From a virus, in the IMG/VR virus record IMGVR_UViG_3300046804_003497, positions 1 to 21,394 of that record: a stretch of DNA of 21,394 nt. The stretch is one strand, 5' to 3'. A program made the position numbers and the translations under genes. Position 1 is the first letter of the stretch, and every line of letters starts with the position of its first letter. A model generated the notes under the pieces. It was not told where the DNA came from. It did not search any database and saw nothing but the letters and a program-made list of their open reading frames with translations. Below are positions 10,800-18,387 of the stretch, piece after piece.

Positions 10800-10955
10800 A
10801 TGACCTATCAACTTGTCGAACCTGGACTTGTCAAACGCCTCACCGACAACGCCTTCATCCCCTTTGCCGAAGGCAACACCGACTACCAGGCGTATCTCAA
10901 GTACGTCGAAGAAGGTGGCGAGGTTTTACCAGCCGACGAACCAGCCGAAAGCTGA
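10800..10955 (+). CDS. Small phage protein (51 aa), target-like neighbour of the HNH endonuclease
   Basis: A short gene from ATG 10800, three bases after the preceding fibre stop. It encodes MTYQLVEPGLVKRLTDNAFI, then PFAEGNTDYQAYLKYVEEGG, and ends EVLPADEPAES. The pattern NTDYQ-xYL-x(2)-EGG-x(2)-LPADE is one I associate with short proteins downstream of phage fibre genes, but the function is unknown. The end is nearly the same as the end of the HNH endonuclease that follows (EPLPADEPPAPES), so this gene or a relative seems to be the site into which the endonuclease came. The peptide is acidic, soluble and lacks a signal sequence. Confidence 0.7.
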   Translation: MTYQLVEPGLVKRLTDNAFIPFAEGNTDYQAYLKYVEEGGEVLPADEPAES

Positions 10956-10998
10956 ACACGGATTATTGAGCTATACTGGCTGTCTGCGCGTTTATTGC

Positions 10999-11661
10999 AT
11001 GGGCAAGCCAGTCGATAATCTTCGTGGCAGAACGTTTGGCAGTCTGACTGTCCTAGAACGTGGTCCGAAGTTGCGGCCTAGTGACGGAGCTTGGTGGCTT
11101 TGCCGCTGCAAATGCGGGAACAAAAAATCAATAGCCGCGACGGATCTAAAACAAAAGAAAGTTTCGTCATGCGGATGCGAACACGCCGCACGAATCGGGC
11201 AAGCCAACAAGACGCATGGAATGTCTAAATCCCGGACCTACCGCATTTGGATGGCCATGCGAAATCGGTGCGACAGGCTCAACCAGGACTACTCAGCACG
11301 CGGCATCAAATACTGTTCCGAGTGGAAGCGGTTTGAAAACTTTTTTGCCGACATGGGTGAAGCGCCTGACGATTGTTCGTTAGATCGCATTGATGTAAAC
11401 GGCAATTACGAAAAAAGCAACTGTCGTTGGGCGACAAGGCAACAGCAGTCAAACAACACAAGAACTAGCGTGTTTATTGAATGGAACGGTAAGTGCCAGA
11501 CGAGGACTCAGTGGGAACGTGAATTGGGGTTACGCCCATCAAGTTTGCGGAGTAGGCTAAGGGCAGGTTGGCCGTTAGAACGCGCCATGCAACCACTACG
11601 CTGGCTAGCCGAAGGCAACGAACCGCTTCCGGCGGATGAGCCGCCTGCCCCCGAAAGCTGA
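10999..11661 (+). CDS. HNH homing endonuclease with a captured C-terminal tail
   Basis: The start is taken as ATG 10999 (MGKPVDNLRGRTFGSLTVLE), giving 220 aa; upstream in-frame sequence only shadows the 51-aa gene. Residues 11-60 form a cysteine-rich DNA-binding unit (RTFGSLTVLE; CRCKCG at 35-40; SCGC at 57-60). Residues ~73-150 are the HNH-type nuclease core seen in free-standing phage endonucleases: YRIWMAMRNRC, YSARGIKYC, LDRIDVNGNY and NCRWATRQQQ. Residues ~158-198 are a helix-turn-helix-like unit (WNGKCQTRTQWERELGL; LRAGWPLERAMQ). The last ~20 residues (WLAEGNEPLPADEPPAPES) do not belong to this family and resemble the C-terminus of the gene upstream. The stop overlaps the next ATG (TGATG). 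No clear Shine-Dalgarno is seen. Confidence 0.88.
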   Translation: MGKPVDNLRGRTFGSLTVLERGPKLRPSDGAWWLCRCKCGNKKSIAATDLKQKKVSSCGCEHAARIGQANKTHGMSKSRTYRIWMAMRNRCDRLNQDYSARGIKYCSEWKRFENFFADMGEAPDDCSLDRIDVNGNYEKSNCRWATRQQQSNNTRTSVFIEWNGKCQTRTQWERELGLRPSSLRSRLRAGWPLERAMQPLRWLAEGNEPLPADEPPAPES

Positions 11662-11798: not shown

Positions 11799-12379
11799 TT
11801 CCGATCTTGGAGCTTCCGGGCTTCAACGTACCAAGACCGCCCGACATTCCGGCATCTCCGCTGGAGCTACCTCGGGCGGTTTTGCCGTCTTATGCACCAA
11901 TAATCATTCCCCAGGCAGTCAGCGCTGGCACGCCATCTGTTCCACTGCCGGAGCCCGCAAAGCCCGCCGAGCCTGCACCCGAGATTCAACAAAATCTGCA
12001 ACAGCTAATAAAGGAAGCACTGCGCCAAGTACCGGAAGAACCATCAGCGCCGCAGGTCGCAAAACCAGCCCAAGCACTTCCCGAGCCATCGTCAACAGCA
12101 GAGGTAACTACGGTCGTTGTACCGGGTACGAACGTAAAAATCCCTGTACCAAAAGCGGAGATTTTGAGCGCCGCGGCCACTACGAGTGTGATTAGCGTCG
12201 GAGCGACCTTAGCTGCCACATCAATGTTCAAGCGCCTAGTCAGCGCAATGAAACCGGCCTTCAAGGCTTTGGCGACGAAGGTGCAGAAACTGCGGGGAAA
12301 GAAGGTGGAGACTTGGGCACGACAGCGGCTACTGGCACGACATCAGCGCATAAGACCGCATGGGGCGAATCTTCCCTGA
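11795..12379 (+). CDS. Proline-rich protein with C-terminal hydrophobic segment, unknown function
   Basis: I choose GTG 11795, which overlaps the upstream stop as GTGA and gives 194 aa beginning (M)IPILELPGFNVPRPPD. Starts further upstream would only read through the two preceding genes. Residues 1-130 are very proline-rich (ELPRAVLPSYAPIIIPQ; PLPEPAKPAEPAPE) with a short helix (NLQQLIKEALRQVPEE). Then come VVVPGTNVKIPVPKAEIL and a membrane-like helix (AAATTSVISVGATLAATSMF, about 141-160), followed by a lysine-rich end (MKPAFKALATKVQKLRGKK). The architecture suggests a virion or membrane-anchored protein with an extended Pro-rich arm. The final ~24 codons use rare-looking codons (cga, ata, aga) and lie antisense to the minus-strand gene at 12261, so the original stop was probably near 12300. 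Confidence 0.68.
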   Translation: MIPILELPGFNVPRPPDIPASPLELPRAVLPSYAPIIIPQAVSAGTPSVPLPEPAKPAEPAPEIQQNLQQLIKEALRQVPEEPSAPQVAKPAQALPEPSSTAEVTTVVVPGTNVKIPVPKAEILSAAATTSVISVGATLAATSMFKRLVSAMKPAFKALATKVQKLRGKKVETWARQRLLARHQRIRPHGANLP

Positions 12380-12800
12380 TCTTGTACCCCTTCTCGTACA
12401 ACTCAGCACACTTCAACGCACGTACCAGGGCATAGTCAAGCCGCTCCTTCTCTAATTTGCGCTTCGCCAGCTCCTTACACAGGCTGACCATCTCAAGATC
12501 GAGTGGAACGCTCAGACTGACCTGCGCCCCAAAGTTCTGATTCCTGACATACGGCTCAGGATTCACATCATTTCCTAAGTAGAAGGGTGTGAACACCAGC
12601 GTCGAGCTATTGCATGTATGCCCGTTGCCATAACTCTGCTGGCTATAGCTGCCTTGATTGATCTGAACCGCCTGATTACTGACGCTGCCGGTTGACGTTG
12701 CCACGGGATTGGCGATTGCCGTTGTGCCGCCATCCTGCGCTGCAACAGGCAGAGCGCAGATTACTGCGAGAACACCGACAACGAATTTGTAGTGCTGTTT
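12261..12800 (-). CDS. Exported protein, unknown function; start codon not identified
   Basis: The coding frame clearly includes an export signal (FVVGVLAVICALPVAAQ, cleavage likely after VAA) followed by GSVSNQAVQINQGSYSQQSY, TLVFTPFYLGNDVNPEPYV, QNFGAQVSLSVPLDLEMV, CKELAKRKLEKERLDYALV and LKCAELYEKGY. The N-terminal half looks beta-rich, the C-terminal half helical, and four cysteines could form disulphides outside the cytoplasm. No ATG, GTG or TTG occurs in this frame for about 100 codons before the signal peptide; the only ATG (13106) merely shadows the neighbouring gene. The left limit (stop TGA 12261) is firm, while 12800 is only the approximate upstream limit. It overlaps the 118-aa gene in the -1 frame and, at its end, the Pro-rich gene on the other strand. 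Confidence 0.62.
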   Translation of the reverse strand, partial: KQHYKFVVGVLAVICALPVAAQDGGTTAIANPVATSTGSVSNQAVQINQGSYSQQSYGNGHTCNSSTLVFTPFYLGNDVNPEPYVRNQNFGAQVSLSVPLDLEMVSLCKELAKRKLEKERLDYALVRALKCAELYEKGYKIREDSPHAVLCADVVPVAAVVPKSPPSFPAVSAPSSPKP

Positions 12801-13117
12801 GTAGTGATGGTGCGGGTAATATCCTGCTGTTCCACGAGTCCAGCAGCTCTGGTTACGGTTTCCAGCTGAAACTGCTCGCCTGCATTCGTGACGCTGTAGG
12901 TGGTCCCGCTGGCGCCGATCGCACCTGAAGGCGTGACGTTGATACCTGAATAGCTGGCGTAGTCGCCTCCGTAGACCTTGACCTGAATGGTTTCGTTGAC
13001 CGTCTGCGTAGTGGTGGTCGTGCTGGTCATGCTGCCCTGCGTGAAGTTGGGCGTCACGGTCTGCGCGACTGCCGCCCCAGGCAACACCATCAGTAGGAGT
13101 AGCCATTTGTAGTTCAT
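12761..13117 (-). CDS. Exported protein of 118 aa, Thr/Ser-rich, unknown function
   Basis: ATG 13117 overlaps the stop of the upstream membrane-protein gene as ATGA. The N-terminus MNYKWLLLLMVLPGAAVAQ is a clear signal peptide with an AVA-Q cleavage site at about residues 18/19. The mature part is rich in Thr and Ser and lacks cysteine: TVTPNFTQGSMTSTTTTTQT, IQVKVYGGDYASYSGINVTP, then TYSVTNAGEQFQLETVTRAA and an end rich in TTNST. It looks like a small secreted beta protein in the periplasm or on the cell surface. I recall similar sequences in cyanophages but know of no assigned role. It is the middle gene of the three-gene minus cassette. Confidence 0.78.
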   Translation of the reverse strand: MNYKWLLLLMVLPGAAVAQTVTPNFTQGSMTSTTTTTQTVNETIQVKVYGGDYASYSGINVTPSGAIGASGTTYSVTNAGEQFQLETVTRAAGLVEQQDITRTITTNSTTNSLSVFSQ

Positions 13118-15024: not shown

Positions 15025-15201
15025 ATGGAGCGCTTCCTAATCGAAATTCGAGGGAAGTTCTACTTCGAGACTGCGCAGGAAGCCGACCTGATTCCTGGGG
15101 ACATCTACTCCAGGATCGCGGAGGCTTTTTACAGTGAAGACGACATCATAGACATAGAAATAGACACATACATTATTCCGAAAAATGGAGCATCAGATTG
15201 A
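15025..15201 (+). CDS. Small acidic protein (58 aa), unknown function
   Basis: A short gene from ATG 15025, 28 bases after the deaminase-like gene. It encodes MERFLIEIRGKFYFETAQEA, then DLIPGDIYSRIAEAFYSEDD and IIDIEIDTYIIPKNGASD. The pattern is alternating beta strands with one helix, acidic and soluble, and the composition is unlike random translation. The stop lies 17 bases inside the following HNH gene. No family is recognised. Confidence 0.55.
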   Translation: MERFLIEIRGKFYFETAQEADLIPGDIYSRIAEAFYSEDDIIDIEIDTYIIPKNGASD

Positions 15202-15559
15202 TGACACCGTTCTCGTTACTAAAAAAGCTAATAAAAAACGATTTCGGGCTTCAATCTTCAGTGCATGGAATAACACCTGCGCTTACTGCGGTAAGCACGC
15301 CACAACCATCGATCACATAAAGGCGAAGGCGCGCGGCGGCCCTACAACACTCAGCAACTGCGTGCCAGCGTGCCTTCGCTGTAACGCGGACAAATCCCAG
15401 ACGCCTCTATGGATTTGGTGGATTCAGCAGCCACATTGGAGCCTAGTTCGCGCGCTTCGTGTGATCCGGTGGATCAACCGCAACGATTTCCTTTCATGTG
15501 TTCGATGTACAGCTGTGCTTGCCATAGGTCATTTGAGTATCGCCCCACAGCGCAGTTAG
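15185..15559 (+). CDS. HNH endonuclease, short Cys4 type
   Basis: A 124-aa protein with a complete HNH zinc module: Cys32-x2-Cys35 (TCAYCGKHAT), Asp43-His44 (TIDHIKAKARGG), Asn58 and Cys63-x2-Cys66-Asn67 (ACLRCNADKS) with Lys70. This is the bacterial/phage HNH form in which His44 is catalytic and the four cysteines bind structural zinc. Residues ~74-98 (PLWIWWIQQPHWSLVRALRV) are a helical extension usual in small phage HNH proteins. The last ~25 residues lie antisense to the minus gene at 15474 and may be run-on beyond the natural end. It may be a homing enzyme or a packaging-linked nuclease; position gives no decision. Its start overlaps the previous gene by 17 bases. Confidence 0.85.
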   Translation: MEHQIDDTVLVTKKANKKRFRASIFSAWNNTCAYCGKHATTIDHIKAKARGGPTTLSNCVPACLRCNADKSQTPLWIWWIQQPHWSLVRALRVIRWINRNDFLSCVRCTAVLAIGHLSIAPQRS

Positions 15560-15710
15560 GCATACAGCTTCGATACCGCACCTCGCCAATCCCTGGCTCA
15601 GTACTCATTTCGATGTAGAAGCCATCACCACAATCGATGGCCCCCTCAGGAATGACGTACTCAGGGCTTTGTCCAGAAGCATGAGCAGTCTTTGGCGAAG
15701 ATTCCTCCAC
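15474..15710 (-). CDS. Small protein (about 78 aa), unknown; last gene of minus operon
   Basis: The reading begins with GTG 15710 inside the preceding minus gene (50-base overlap) and ends at 15474. The convincing part is SPEYVIPEGAIDCGDGFYIE, MSTEPGIGEVRYRSCMPNCA and VGRYSNDLWQAQLYIEHMKG: aromatic-rich with three cysteines and a helical end. The first ~14 residues shadow the Cys-rich end of the upstream gene, so the true start may be further in. It converges on the HNH gene, overlapping it by 86 bases. No family is recognised. Confidence 0.5.
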   Translation of the reverse strand: MEESSPKTAHASGQSPEYVIPEGAIDCGDGFYIEMSTEPGIGEVRYRSCMPNCAVGRYSNDLWQAQLYIEHMKGNRCG

Positions 15711-15969
15711 TGGAGCGCCCCTCAGGGAAACCTAAACCACATTGTGCCGCAATCACTTCCCAGTGGATGCAGTGCTGACACCTCGGCTGATTATTAGTGA
15801 TGGCCCGCGCATCGGCATAGAGCTGCTCAGCCTCAATAACTGCAGCTTCAAGCTCGCTGCAACTAAGCGGAAGTTCAATCTTGCCCGTATGAGTCTTGAT
15901 GCGGACACGCCATCCATCGGTTCCCTGGAAAAGAACCATGCGGCCGGCGTGATACCGCAGCGAGGCCAC
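15661..15969 (-). CDS. Protein with C-terminal Cys/FPE/DC motif (102 aa)
   Basis: Start taken as GTG 15969, which overlaps the kinase stop by one base (TAGTG); ATG 15939 is an alternative. Residues 10-35 are beta-rich (RMVLFQGTDGWRVRIKTHTG), 38-58 a helix, and 64-97 a cysteine-rich end: Cys64-x2-Cys67-I-H-W, Cys77-GLG-FPE, then FAKDC (Cys95). Four regularly placed cysteines suggest a zinc site. The same end recurs in the genes at 17086 and 17312. Function unknown. Confidence 0.65.
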   Translation of the reverse strand: MASLRYHAGRMVLFQGTDGWRVRIKTHTGKIELPLSCSELEAAVIEAEQLYADARAITNNQPRCQHCIHWEVIAAQCGLGFPEGRSSGGIFAKDCSCFWTKP

Positions 15970-16511
15970 TACACCTGAGCAATTAGCTGAAGCTTAGTTG
16001 TGAGGTCTTCTAATGTCCCGTCGTTGAAGACAGCACACGAAAAATCTAAATAGTCGTTGAGGCCGCCCTCGCTGCTGTGCTCGAAACTGCGTGGTACGCC
16101 TGGCCGCTCAACGTACCAAAGCTGCCCTCCCAGCTTTTTGATCAATTGCGCTTCATTAACGAAGCGGCAGTCATCGACGACAACTTTGTCGTACTGCTTG
16201 ATTCGCTCACTCCAACAGCGCAACCAGATGTCAGGGCGAACGCAATCTCGGCCCCATTCCGTACCAAGGGTCCTCAGCATGTGCCGCACGCTGACGTCAG
16301 CACCTGGTACGACCACCTCCTTGTGCTTGTACACAAGATCTTCAGCCGCGGCTGTGCAGTATCCCAACGCTTTAAGCATCGGAATAAGCATTTCCTTGAG
16401 CGTCTGAGCAAAGGGCACAACGGTGTAGCCCTCTGTCTCGACTAGCCACTGAGCGATAGTGGACTTACCAGATCCAGCAGCAGGGCTATACAGCCCAATC
16501 AGTTTGTTCAC
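15969..16511 (-). CDS. Deoxynucleoside monophosphate kinase
   Basis: The start is GTG 16511 (MNKLIGLYSPAAGSGKST). Residues 8-18 hold the P-loop (SPAAGSGKST). RHMLRTLGTEWGRDCVRPDI is the hallmark of phage dNMP kinases (T4 gene 1 family), and KVVVDDCRFVNEAQLIKKLG supplies the Walker B-like strand and a following DxRF motif. At 180 aa it is shorter than T4 gp1 (about 241 aa) but matches other phage members. It phosphorylates dNMPs to dNDPs. With ThyX in the same operon it would move dTMP toward dTTP and recycle host nucleotides. It lies five bases downstream of the gene at 16517. Confidence 0.85.
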   Translation of the reverse strand: MNKLIGLYSPAAGSGKSTIAQWLVETEGYTVVPFAQTLKEMLIPMLKALGYCTAAAEDLVYKHKEVVVPGADVSVRHMLRTLGTEWGRDCVRPDIWLRCWSERIKQYDKVVVDDCRFVNEAQLIKKLGGQLWYVERPGVPRSFEHSSEGGLNDYLDFSCAVFNDGTLEDLTTKLQLIAQV

Positions 16512-16516
16512 CGTAA

Positions 16517-16756
16517 TTAAGCGTAGTAAGAGGCAATAAAGGAAGCGCGCATAATTTCAGCGCTATCGTCCTTGAACTTTTGCATCAATCCCGTATAAGT
16601 CCCGTGGTCCGGGTCCTCAGGGTTGCTGCGGTCATAAAGCTCGTAAAGGTAATCAAGAAACGCGGCCTTACCGGTCTCGATCTGCCATGGCTTGAGCTCT
16701 TCGCAGAGCGTCTCGGCGTTCAGCGACTGGATCGCCCCAATAAACGGTTTTTCCAT
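16517..16756 (-). CDS. Small protein (79 aa), unknown function
   Basis: ATG 16756 gives MEKPFIGAIQSLNAETLCEE; a TTG at 16786 would add ten residues. It continues LKPWQIETGKAAFLDYLYEL, YDRSNPEDPDHGTYTGLMQK and ends in a helix with ASYYA. It looks helical, with a conserved-looking KPWQ...FLDYLYEL core and normal GC-rich third codon positions. No family is recognised. It overlaps the upstream frame by 89 bases, ends six bases before the kinase start, and the two are probably co-translated. Confidence 0.62.
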   Translation of the reverse strand: MEKPFIGAIQSLNAETLCEELKPWQIETGKAAFLDYLYELYDRSNPEDPDHGTYTGLMQKFKDDSAEIMRASFIASYYA

Positions 16757-16844
16757 TAAAGAACCAAGGTCGAAAGTAAGTGTCAATGCCGAAGACCATG
16801 GGGTGAGCGCCGTAAGAGCCTACCCCGGCTGTCCAGTAATACAC
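16668..16844 (-). CDS. Possible small aromatic-rich protein overlapping its neighbour
   Basis: A frame starting at GTG 16844, two bases after the stop of the gene at 16847 and 11 bases after GGAG, encodes (M)YYWTAGVGSYGAHPMVFG, then IDTYFRPWFFNGKTVYWGDP. The first 35 residues look like protein, with good codon use. The rest (ERRDALRRAQ...) reads like a shadow of the 79-aa gene in another frame. An earlier ATG (16916) would add a CTGCGARL segment. It could be a real gene with an overlapping end, or chance. Confidence 0.38.
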   Translation of the reverse strand: MYYWTAGVGSYGAHPMVFGIDTYFRPWFFNGKTVYWGDPVAERRDALRRAQAMADRDR

Positions 16845-16846
16845 GG

Positions 16847-17089
16847 TCAGCCGTGCTCCGCATCCGGTGCATGGTAGAGGCGTTCCAGCTGCTGAGCCGG
16901 AGTTTCGTAACCCCATGGAACACTATCCAGGTCATCGTCATCAAGGGGCTCTTGGTCAGTCGGATCCTTGAGTATCCAGGTCACAAGCTCGCTGTGCTGC
17001 TTGACGATGATCATGCCCACACGGGGTGACCTACTCAGCAGCCTGAATAAGAAGACCTCGAAGCGGTTAAGGAAGGGGTGCCAGTTCAT
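16847..17089 (-). CDS. Small acidic-tailed protein (80 aa), unknown
   Basis: ATG 17089 overlaps the previous stop as ATGA. The product begins MNWHPFLNRFEVFLFRLLSR, then VGMIIVKQHSELVTWILKD, and has an acidic middle (EPLDDDDLDSVPWGYETP) and a helical end (AQQLERLYHAP). A shorter form starting at MIIVKQ is possible. Soluble, no recognised motif. Position within the ThyX-kinase operon is the only clue to role. Confidence 0.58.
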   Translation of the reverse strand: MNWHPFLNRFEVFLFRLLSRSPRVGMIIVKQHSELVTWILKDPTDQEPLDDDDLDSVPWGYETPAQQLERLYHAPDAEHG

Positions 17090-17415
17090 TGAAGGGTCTC
17101 AGTAAGTAGGGCTGGACAGTCAAGGGCATACACAGAACCGCCTTCAGGAAAACCAAGGCCGCACTTACTGCTCCAATGTATGCATGGTGCGCAAGGACCA
17201 CCACACTCTGATGCTTTGTACTTGGAACGCATCCACTCCATACGCCGCTCGGCTTTACCGCCCGGCGTCTGCACAAAACACTTGTTGCAGTAAACGGGAT
17301 TCCGCGTGGAATTACCGCACTGCACACACTTCCGCGTGTTGATCTTTTGTGAATAGCGAGCAGTCGCGGGCGAAAGATCCACCCGCTTCGGGGAACTGCA
17401 TTGAACAGGAGCCAT
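17086..17415 (-). CDS. Double zinc-binding protein with C-terminal Cys/FPE/DC motif; start uncertain
   Basis: The frame from ATG 17415 encodes 109 aa, but residues 1-27 overlap the preceding gene in another frame and look like its shadow. The true product probably begins near KCVQCG; GTG 17325 is a coupled alternative but would lose the first cysteine. A zinc ribbon at 30-46 (CVQCGNSTRNPVYCNKC) is followed by a basic linker (GGKAERRMEWMRSKYKAS) and the end motif Cys75-x2-Cys78-I-H-W, Cys85-GLG-FPE, YALDC (Cys100). Two putative zinc sites suggest binding to nucleic acid or protein; function unknown. Confidence 0.62.
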   Translation of the reverse strand: MAPVQCSSPKRVDLSPATARYSQKINTRKCVQCGNSTRNPVYCNKCFVQTPGGKAERRMEWMRSKYKASECGGPCAPCIHWSSKCGLGFPEGGSVYALDCPALLTETLQ

Positions 17416-17668
17416 CGGACCAGTAAGTGCATGAGGTACAGGACTCGCGGCCCTCGGGTTTCAGGACCTGCGAGATAGCGGTATTTAGCCGCTGCAGGAG
17501 CTTGTACTCCTCGATTAGTTCCGGCGTAACTTCGTAAGTTGTCTGCCTATGGCCGCAGTCGCTGCATTCGCGCCGGTAGCGATAAGCCGCGAGGTTGTTG
17601 ACCTTTCTGCATTCCTTCACCTTGAGCGAAGGCTGCCCGCACTTCGGGCACGTGCGAAAAAAGCTCAT
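17312..17668 (-). CDS. NrdR-like zinc-ribbon protein with C-terminal Cys/FPE/DC motif
   Basis: 118 aa from ATG 17668, overlapping the thyX stop as ATGA. Residues 7-46 (CPKCGQPSLKVKECR ... RYRRECSDCGHRQTTYE) match the zinc ribbon of NrdR, the repressor of ribonucleotide reductase genes, with Cys7, Cys10, Cys35 and Cys38. The ATP-cone that follows in true NrdR is absent; instead there is a helix (ELIEEYKLLQRLNTAISQVL) and the end motif Cys77-x2-Cys80-T-Y-W, Cys88-SMQ-FPE, FARDC (Cys103). DNA binding is plausible. Its place next to nucleotide genes fits a regulator of that pathway, but this is inference. Confidence 0.72.
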   Translation of the reverse strand: MSFFRTCPKCGQPSLKVKECRKVNNLAAYRYRRECSDCGHRQTTYEVTPELIEEYKLLQRLNTAISQVLKPEGRESCTSCTYWSDGSCSMQFPEAGGSFARDCSLFTKDQHAEVCAVR

Positions 17669-18387
17669 GGCGCTAAGCGGGCTTTACCCAGCCGCCGTTC
17701 CACGTAATAAGTGAGGATCTCAGGCGCCCAGTCCTCGAGGCGTGGCAGCATCAAATCACAGAGTGCCTGAATTTCAGGCTGCGCGTCTGCCTTAGCCCGC
17801 AGGTCAAGGAAGTGGAGCGCACTCCGCAGATTGAAGGTGACGACAAAGTTTTGCCTGAAATCAAAGGGCAGCATCCCTCGAATGTGCTCCTCAGCGAATC
17901 CAGCCCTAAGCCGCGCTGCATACCGCCTAATCAGATCCGTAGCAACGATCTGATCCTGCACCATGTCATCAACGGAGTAGCGGTATTTCTTGCCATCTCG
18001 ATCCTTGTAATAACCGGGCTGGCGGAAATACACCACATCCTCAACTTTCAGCTGGCCCGAGACAACCTCGAGCATGCGCTGGCCCGTGTAGCGCATCGAC
18101 TGCACATCGAAGCTCACGCCCACCCGGTGGGTGCGGGCCTGCTGCATCACGGAATGGGGGAACCCGCCTACGGCAAAAGTGATGGCGGGATGTTCGAGTG
18201 GTCCGTAATGACCGCGCTCCCCAGCTAAGAGTCGCTTGACGCATATGCGTCCTGCTTCATCCTCTGCCGGGATACCGGAGTCAGCAACGAAACCCTCGAA
18301 GTAGTCCTGGTGCATGCCAAGCCACACCAGTTGTTGAGGGTTCTCCGTCGCACTAAGGACGTGAACCCTAAATCGCGTGTCTTCCAT
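17665..18387 (-). CDS. thyX: Flavin-dependent thymidylate synthase ThyX
   Basis: At 240 aa it is the usual size for ThyX. Motifs in order: LAGERGHYGPLEHPAITF (about 54-71), the signature region QQARTHRVGVSFDVQSMRYT (82-101) and FNLRSALHFLDLRAKADAQP near 185-205, then the closing helix with LMLPRLEDWAPEI. The signature has R85-T-H87-R88 and S97-x-R99-Y100, an R-T-H-R-x8-S version of the common RHRx7S motif. ThyX makes dTMP from dUMP using FAD, NADPH and methylenetetrahydrofolate. With the dNMP kinase downstream and the deaminase-family enzyme on the plus strand it forms a dTTP supply route. Confidence 0.95.
   Translation of the reverse strand: MEDTRFRVHVLSATENPQQLVWLGMHQDYFEGFVADSGIPAEDEAGRICVKRLLAGERGHYGPLEHPAITFAVGGFPHSVMQQARTHRVGVSFDVQSMRYTGQRMLEVVSGQLKVEDVVYFRQPGYYKDRDGKKYRYSVDDMVQDQIVATDLIRRYAARLRAGFAEEHIRGMLPFDFRQNFVVTFNLRSALHFLDLRAKADAQPEIQALCDLMLPRLEDWAPEILTYYVERRLGKARLAP

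Follow-up and report, generated by a model that had tools for sequence, protein, structure and literature searches.

Three small proteins encoded in one tightly packed early operon of a virus share a conserved C-terminal module, a tail with four cysteines (Cys4), which is fused to N-terminal domains of different types. The genes lie in a stretch of 21,394 nt, referred to below as the window (IMG/VR record IMGVR_UViG_3300046804_003497, positions 1 to 21,394). The module is previously uncatalogued in Pfam, PHROG and PDB sequence families and, within the searches reported here, is restricted to viral records, where it recurs in several architectures and where tail genes co-occur. We propose, with somewhat less than even confidence, that the tail is a Cys4 zinc protein-interaction module through which small DNA-binding early proteins would dock on a partner common to them, or pair with each other.

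The original prediction had placed the three genes in one operon, and they indeed belong to a close-packed minus-strand run (Table 1). The order in this run is ThyX-B-C-x-x-x-dNMP kinase-A, where x stands for small ORFs (n=3) and A, B and C for classes of tail protein; DNA polymerase I (20856) is also part of it. Spacing is tight (gaps of +5, -1 and -4 nt), with overlaps of 1–4 nt at several junctions and larger ones at some. The ThyX gene is immediately upstream of the class B gene (4-nt overlap), and the dNMP kinase gene immediately upstream of the class A gene (1-nt overlap). With the ATG at 17415 as start codon, the class C gene would share 104 nt with the class B gene in another frame; because this candidate ATG lies inside the upstream gene, and an in-frame GTG is found further on, the N-terminus of class C is uncertain. 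The B/C overlap (17312–17415, minus strand), made of the tail of B and the beginning of C, recurs in relatives of the window.

Table 1. Tail genes and adjoining genes of the minus-strand run in the window.
Feature	Position	Strand	Description
Class A gene	15661..15969	-	102 aa; ORF and alignment of 38 family members; beta4-alpha domain about residues 1–58, Cys4 tail residues 64–98
Class A tail	15676..15783	-	CQHCIHWEVIAAQCGLGFPEGRSSGGIFAKDC and residues after it
Class C gene	17086..17415	-	up to 109 aa; short zinc ribbon CVQC-x9-CNKC, then Cys4 tail
Class C tail	17110..17196	-	CAPCIHWSSKCGLGFPEGGSVYALDC
Class B gene	17312..17668	-	118 aa; NrdR-type zinc ribbon residues 7–46, helix 49–69, Cys4 tail 77–103
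Class B tail	17339..17449	-	CTSCTYWSDGSCSMQFPEAGGSFARDC and flanks
Deoxynucleoside monophosphate (dNMP) kinase	15969..16511	-	PF21448 3e-17, phrog_139 6e-42
ThyX flavin-dependent thymidylate synthase	17665..18387	-	PF02511 1e-38
78-aa conserved gene	15474..15710	-	overlaps class A 3' end; 'RYSNDLWQAQLY'

A common C-terminal motif had been predicted for the genes at 15661, 17086 and 17312. All three ORFs are present, and when their tails are aligned, 11 columns do not vary (C, C, W, C, F, P, E, G, A, D and C). Used as a query against the window record, the third tail recovered exactly the two others (E 3e-6 and 1e-5). The window contains the strict motif three times, against none in 2,000 within-ORF shuffles, among which a much looser tail pattern occurred twice. 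Over 141 distinct tails, conservation is 100% for the four cysteines, the proline of FP[ED] and the alanine of [FY]A, and 98% for the tryptophan, the consensus being C-x2-C-x2-W-x(3-6)-C-x3-FP[ED]-x(n)-[FY]A-x2-C. Of the exact motif first proposed, the frame of Cys, Trp, Pro and Ala stood; the acidic position, given as E, is E or D, the D before the last Cys is inconstant, and the spacing varies. No histidine is invariant among the 141 tails, in which the invariant residues are Cys, Pro and Ala, and four potentially metal-coordinating cysteines are kept in every one. The tail is probably a zinc-binding Cys4 module. AF2 confidence for it is moderate (block means of about 56–76 in the class A and B models), and the spans reported in fold searches mostly end near residue 60, so that they barely cover the tail region.

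The sample came from four viral-contig scans followed by a profile search of ORFs. Since no stretch of the profile built from 15 diverse tails was conserved enough for pattern scans, closer subsets were used for them. The profile search yielded 347 matches (197 distinct, in 64 clusters), and the 206 related loci reduced to 78 non-redundant groups. Two outcomes had been named as counting against a separate module, that the tail would prove to be part of an ordinary known domain or that its cysteines would vary. Neither occurred: the 15 diverse tails matched no Pfam family (best E 0.038, to an unrelated family) and no PHROG family (best E 0.021, across 16 residues), the best match of the tail to PDB sequences was a chance one (E 1.3), and the cysteines are constant.

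Among 50,697 phage records, queried with two proteins of the window and five that represent the classes, the tail was found only in gene A39 of Synechococcus phage S-LBS1, its one occurrence in these searches other than on contigs of uncultured viruses. Its product (SLBS1_A39, ATS93211.1, 'hypothetical protein') combines an NrdR-like ribbon, a helix-turn-helix (HTH) and the same tail, and is 36% identical to the protein of locus L190 over 78% of the latter (E 1e-14). S-LBS1 has one tail copy, and no class A copy was found in that genome. The S-LBS1 paper mentions neither zinc nor gene A39 (PMC6157547), and we found no description of this module in the literature. In the cyanophages S-CRES2, S-SRP02 and Ssp-JY39, which have NrdR-like ribbons, no tail was matched at E up to 1, nor was one in S-EIVl and PaV-LD, whose matches were due to chance. 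Plasmids searched for relatives of the S-LBS1 protein returned noise alone. When 84,980 genomes of bacteria and archaea were scanned with one 9-residue B-type pattern, which leaves A-, D- and E-type tails in cells out of reach, a single locus was found, a chance match. A cellular origin through this locus was rejected: the match lies in a gene resembling that of a transporter, in an alternative reading frame, and the tail profile found nothing across the 3.1-Mb genome concerned. On the strength of S-LBS1 and of short stretches in which the window matches Synechococcus phages at the nucleotide level, the hosts are probably cyanobacteria.

The tail is borne by N-termini of five classes: beta4-alpha (A), NrdR-type ribbon (B), another ribbon (C), HTH (D), and ribbon plus HTH (E, comprising S-LBS1 A39 and members from L085, L130, L131, L133, L189, L190 and L198). 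The idea that one small module serves as a common tail on different proteins is thus borne out for beta, ribbon, HTH and ribbon-HTH N-termini. The gene at 17312 had been said to encode an NrdR-like ribbon, in agreement with the match of the window protein to PF22811 (E=8e-10, 38.9 bits for a cut-off of 27.2) and with the predicted class B fold (AF2 pLDDT 75), which aligns with NrdR at Z 6.7 (rmsd 1.7, 45 residues). The ribbons of classes B and E are in this way alike to that of NrdR (PDB 7p37, 9fxk) by sequence and by predicted fold. Unlike NrdR, the phage proteins are without the ATP-cone and have the Cys4 tail, or HTH and tail, instead; in the class B protein, the ATP-cone family is absent from the Pfam matches at E up to 10, and its place is occupied by the helix and the tail. 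The HTH of classes D and E resembles the C-terminal HTH of phage HNH homing endonucleases. In contrast to these enzymes, the D and E proteins have no HNH domain (the family matched none of the tail-bearing HTH proteins scanned), and their tail is C-terminal to the HTH.

Of the 34 proteins in the B/D/E alignment, 29 have a recognisable NrdR ribbon. Because the E proteins join ribbon, HTH and tail, and because the tail tree intermixes D and E, classes B and D probably arose by reduction within one family. The original prediction called the N-terminal parts unrelated, which is only partly right since E links B and D; it fits class A, whose N-terminus looks distinct from the others, and perhaps class C, which occurs only in the window's own lineage, adjoining B. 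In the tail tree, class A forms a single clade (support 97), as does class C (99), the few columns on which the tree rests leaving the deep branching order open. As tails group by class, every class has retained a tail version of its own.

This kinship gives rise to the main rival explanation, in which the proteins are paralogues of an ancient ribbon-HTH-tail DNA-binding family whose N-terminal parts were gained and lost, while the tail is a structural C-terminal cap that stabilises the fold and has no common partner. It would account for B and D looking like trimmed forms of E and for the mixing of D and E tails, and the invariant Cys, Trp, Pro and Ala are mostly as expected of a structural core. 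However, the class A fold cannot be derived from the ribbon or the HTH, yet it carries this tail too and in no case was it observed tail-less. Moreover, A and B/D/E tail proteins are found together in small operons, and other cyanophages have NrdR-type ribbons without the tail. We regard a purely structural cap as unlikely, though it deserves to be taken seriously. Tail-less NrdR-type ribbon proteins are also encoded close to tail genes and on their strand: in the A-only loci L033 (6141–6374), L045 (3463–3696), L151 (957–1265) and L175 (2084–2473) they lie about 1.7–2.3 kb upstream, and one more is present in L086 (7169–7474).

In the alignment of class A proteins (n=38), the invariant residues are W20, Y51, C64, C67, W70, C77, P82, E83, G89, A92 and C95. 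The AF2 model (pLDDT 79.9 overall, about 80–90 in the N-terminal domain) predicts four strands and one helix (beta-beta-beta-beta-alpha) for the N-terminal domain. This domain was found with a tail 165 times; the five tail-less matches were ORFs of about 50 aa, and the three distinct ones inspected were all cut at the end of the locus sequence. The model aligned best with P4-like integrases, in their arm-type DNA-binding domains (3rmp, Z 5.8; 3jtz, Z 5.5), then with AcrIF24 (7dtr, Z 5.4) and with the AP2 domain of 6sy0 (Z 5.3). For the arm-type and AP2 structures, rmsd was 2.1–3.5 over 52–60 residues; all these Z scores are less than 8, below the trustworthy range, and may mean a common arrangement alone. 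Unlike the arm-type and AP2 proteins, class A has no recombinase domain and only a weak positive charge, and shows no significant sequence match to them: no Pfam arm or AP2 family was matched, DUF6538 appeared at E 0.057 in three members, and Foldseek gave nothing below E 0.25. Tentatively, the model suggests an arm/AP2-like N-terminus with a DNA-binding role. A match of class A to Stappia phage SI01 was discarded as due to chance.

Another possibility is that class A is a host RNA polymerase inhibitor of the T7 gp2 type, the whole set acting on RNA polymerase. Weak matches to PF16857 were seen in six of the 38 class A members (best E 0.0023), and phrog_1307 was matched at E 0.02, but the PF16857 score was 13.3 bits against a cut-off of 27, and the hhalign profile comparison with T7 gp2 gave a probability of 6%. 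As the predicted beta-beta-beta-beta-alpha order also argues against it, class A was rejected as a gp2 relative, and we hold such a role to be highly improbable.

The distribution of classes over the 78 groups was A alone in 23, A+D in 20, A+B+C in 9, E alone in 8 and B alone in 7, single-copy loci being over-counted because many loci are fragments. Rarer combinations were A+E (4), A+B (2), an unclassified protein with A (2), B+D (1) and others (2). Class A was accompanied by one or two other tail proteins in 37 groups, on the same strand and mostly a few kb apart. Longer records have one to three tail genes, and most multi-copy genomes have one A and one ribbon or HTH protein. Such frequent sets of A with one DNA-binder would be expected if the A tail paired with a B, D or E tail to form a hetero-oligomer, and the average charge of A tails (+1.2) is opposite to that of these partner tails (-1.6 to -3.4). 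However, A is the sole class in a 55.9-kb record and B in one of 51.6 kb, two B proteins are present in a record of 85 kb, and one group is B+D; tail-to-tail pairing therefore cannot be obligatory, with the proviso that the records may be incomplete. Since the charge difference is in addition small and confounded by shared ancestry, mutual pairing of tails appears improbable.

The neighbourhood of the tail genes is partly conserved, in the order dNMP kinase, A, the gene at 15474–15710 of the window, then a convergent HNH gene and dCTP deaminase. Of 56 representative loci, 16 have a member of the dNMP kinase family, which directly precedes A in L190 too. The family of the 78-aa gene, named 'YSSDLWQAQ' (pattern 'YRxC...CRYSSDLWQAQxY'), is present in 37 of the 56, always on the strand of the tail genes and at a median of 229 nt from a tail gene. 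HNH and dCTP deaminase genes (46 and 35 of the 56, respectively) are mostly on the opposite strand. In the window, the HNH endonuclease gene (15185–15559, plus strand) is convergent with the tail operon. The presence of its family in 46 loci indicates that this gene behaves as a fixed, rather than a sporadic mobile, element.

Charges differ between the two parts of the proteins. The mean charge of N-termini is +6.9 for B, +7.4 for C, +4.7 for D and +10.9 for E, and +1.1 for A, and the corresponding tails average -2.3, -0.2, -1.6 and -3.4, class A being given above. Four cysteines with CxxC spacing are common in nucleic-acid-binding zinc modules. Together with the DNA-binding-type domains alongside, this could mean that the tail is a second nucleic-acid-binding finger and the proteins two-headed DNA or RNA binders. 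However, B, D and E tail cores are net negative and without conserved basic residues, and a slight positive charge is seen in tails of class A alone, so that we give this reading little chance. The charge split, the strict cysteines, the C-terminal position and the different folds favour contact with a protein over contact with nucleic acid. Against docking count the weakly basic N-terminus and slightly positive tails of class A, the modest Z (5.8) of its DNA-binding-like fold match and the moderate AF2 confidence of the tail.

In the docking mechanism that we infer, several small early-operon proteins of S-LBS1-related phages would carry the putative metal-binding tail. Most of their N-termini are known or likely DNA-binding types (NrdR-type ribbon, HNH-associated-type HTH, or both), class A having its beta4-alpha domain. 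Each N-terminus would select DNA or another site, while all the proteins would be led by their common tail to the same partner, which may be a phage or host component of transcription or replication, or another tail protein. The outcome would be coordinated early gene expression or DNA metabolism. A bolder version, which we consider rather unlikely, is that the tail is a phage-specific zinc plug, common to a whole group of cyanophages, by which different DNA-recognition domains are wired to a single shared partner in one early regulatory complex, with class-specific variants setting the positions.

Two further observations were made in the window. An HNH/AP2-like reading frame (10813–11661, plus strand) stands amid tail-fibre genes and is, by eye, homing-endonuclease-like. 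Opposite structural genes, two overlapping ORFs (12261–13117, minus strand), at least one of which has a signal-peptide-like start, possibly encode secreted proteins.

The module family, absent from Pfam and PHROGs, marks small anonymous early proteins of cyanophages as one functional group. S-LBS1 and Synechococcus sp. TCC793 are a described phage-host pair carrying one tail protein, and a single tail used as bait could expose the shared partner, which offers a direct experimental handle. If the docking hypothesis is true, interaction tails would be re-used on different DNA-recognition domains, an arrangement that would be unusual among small phage proteins.
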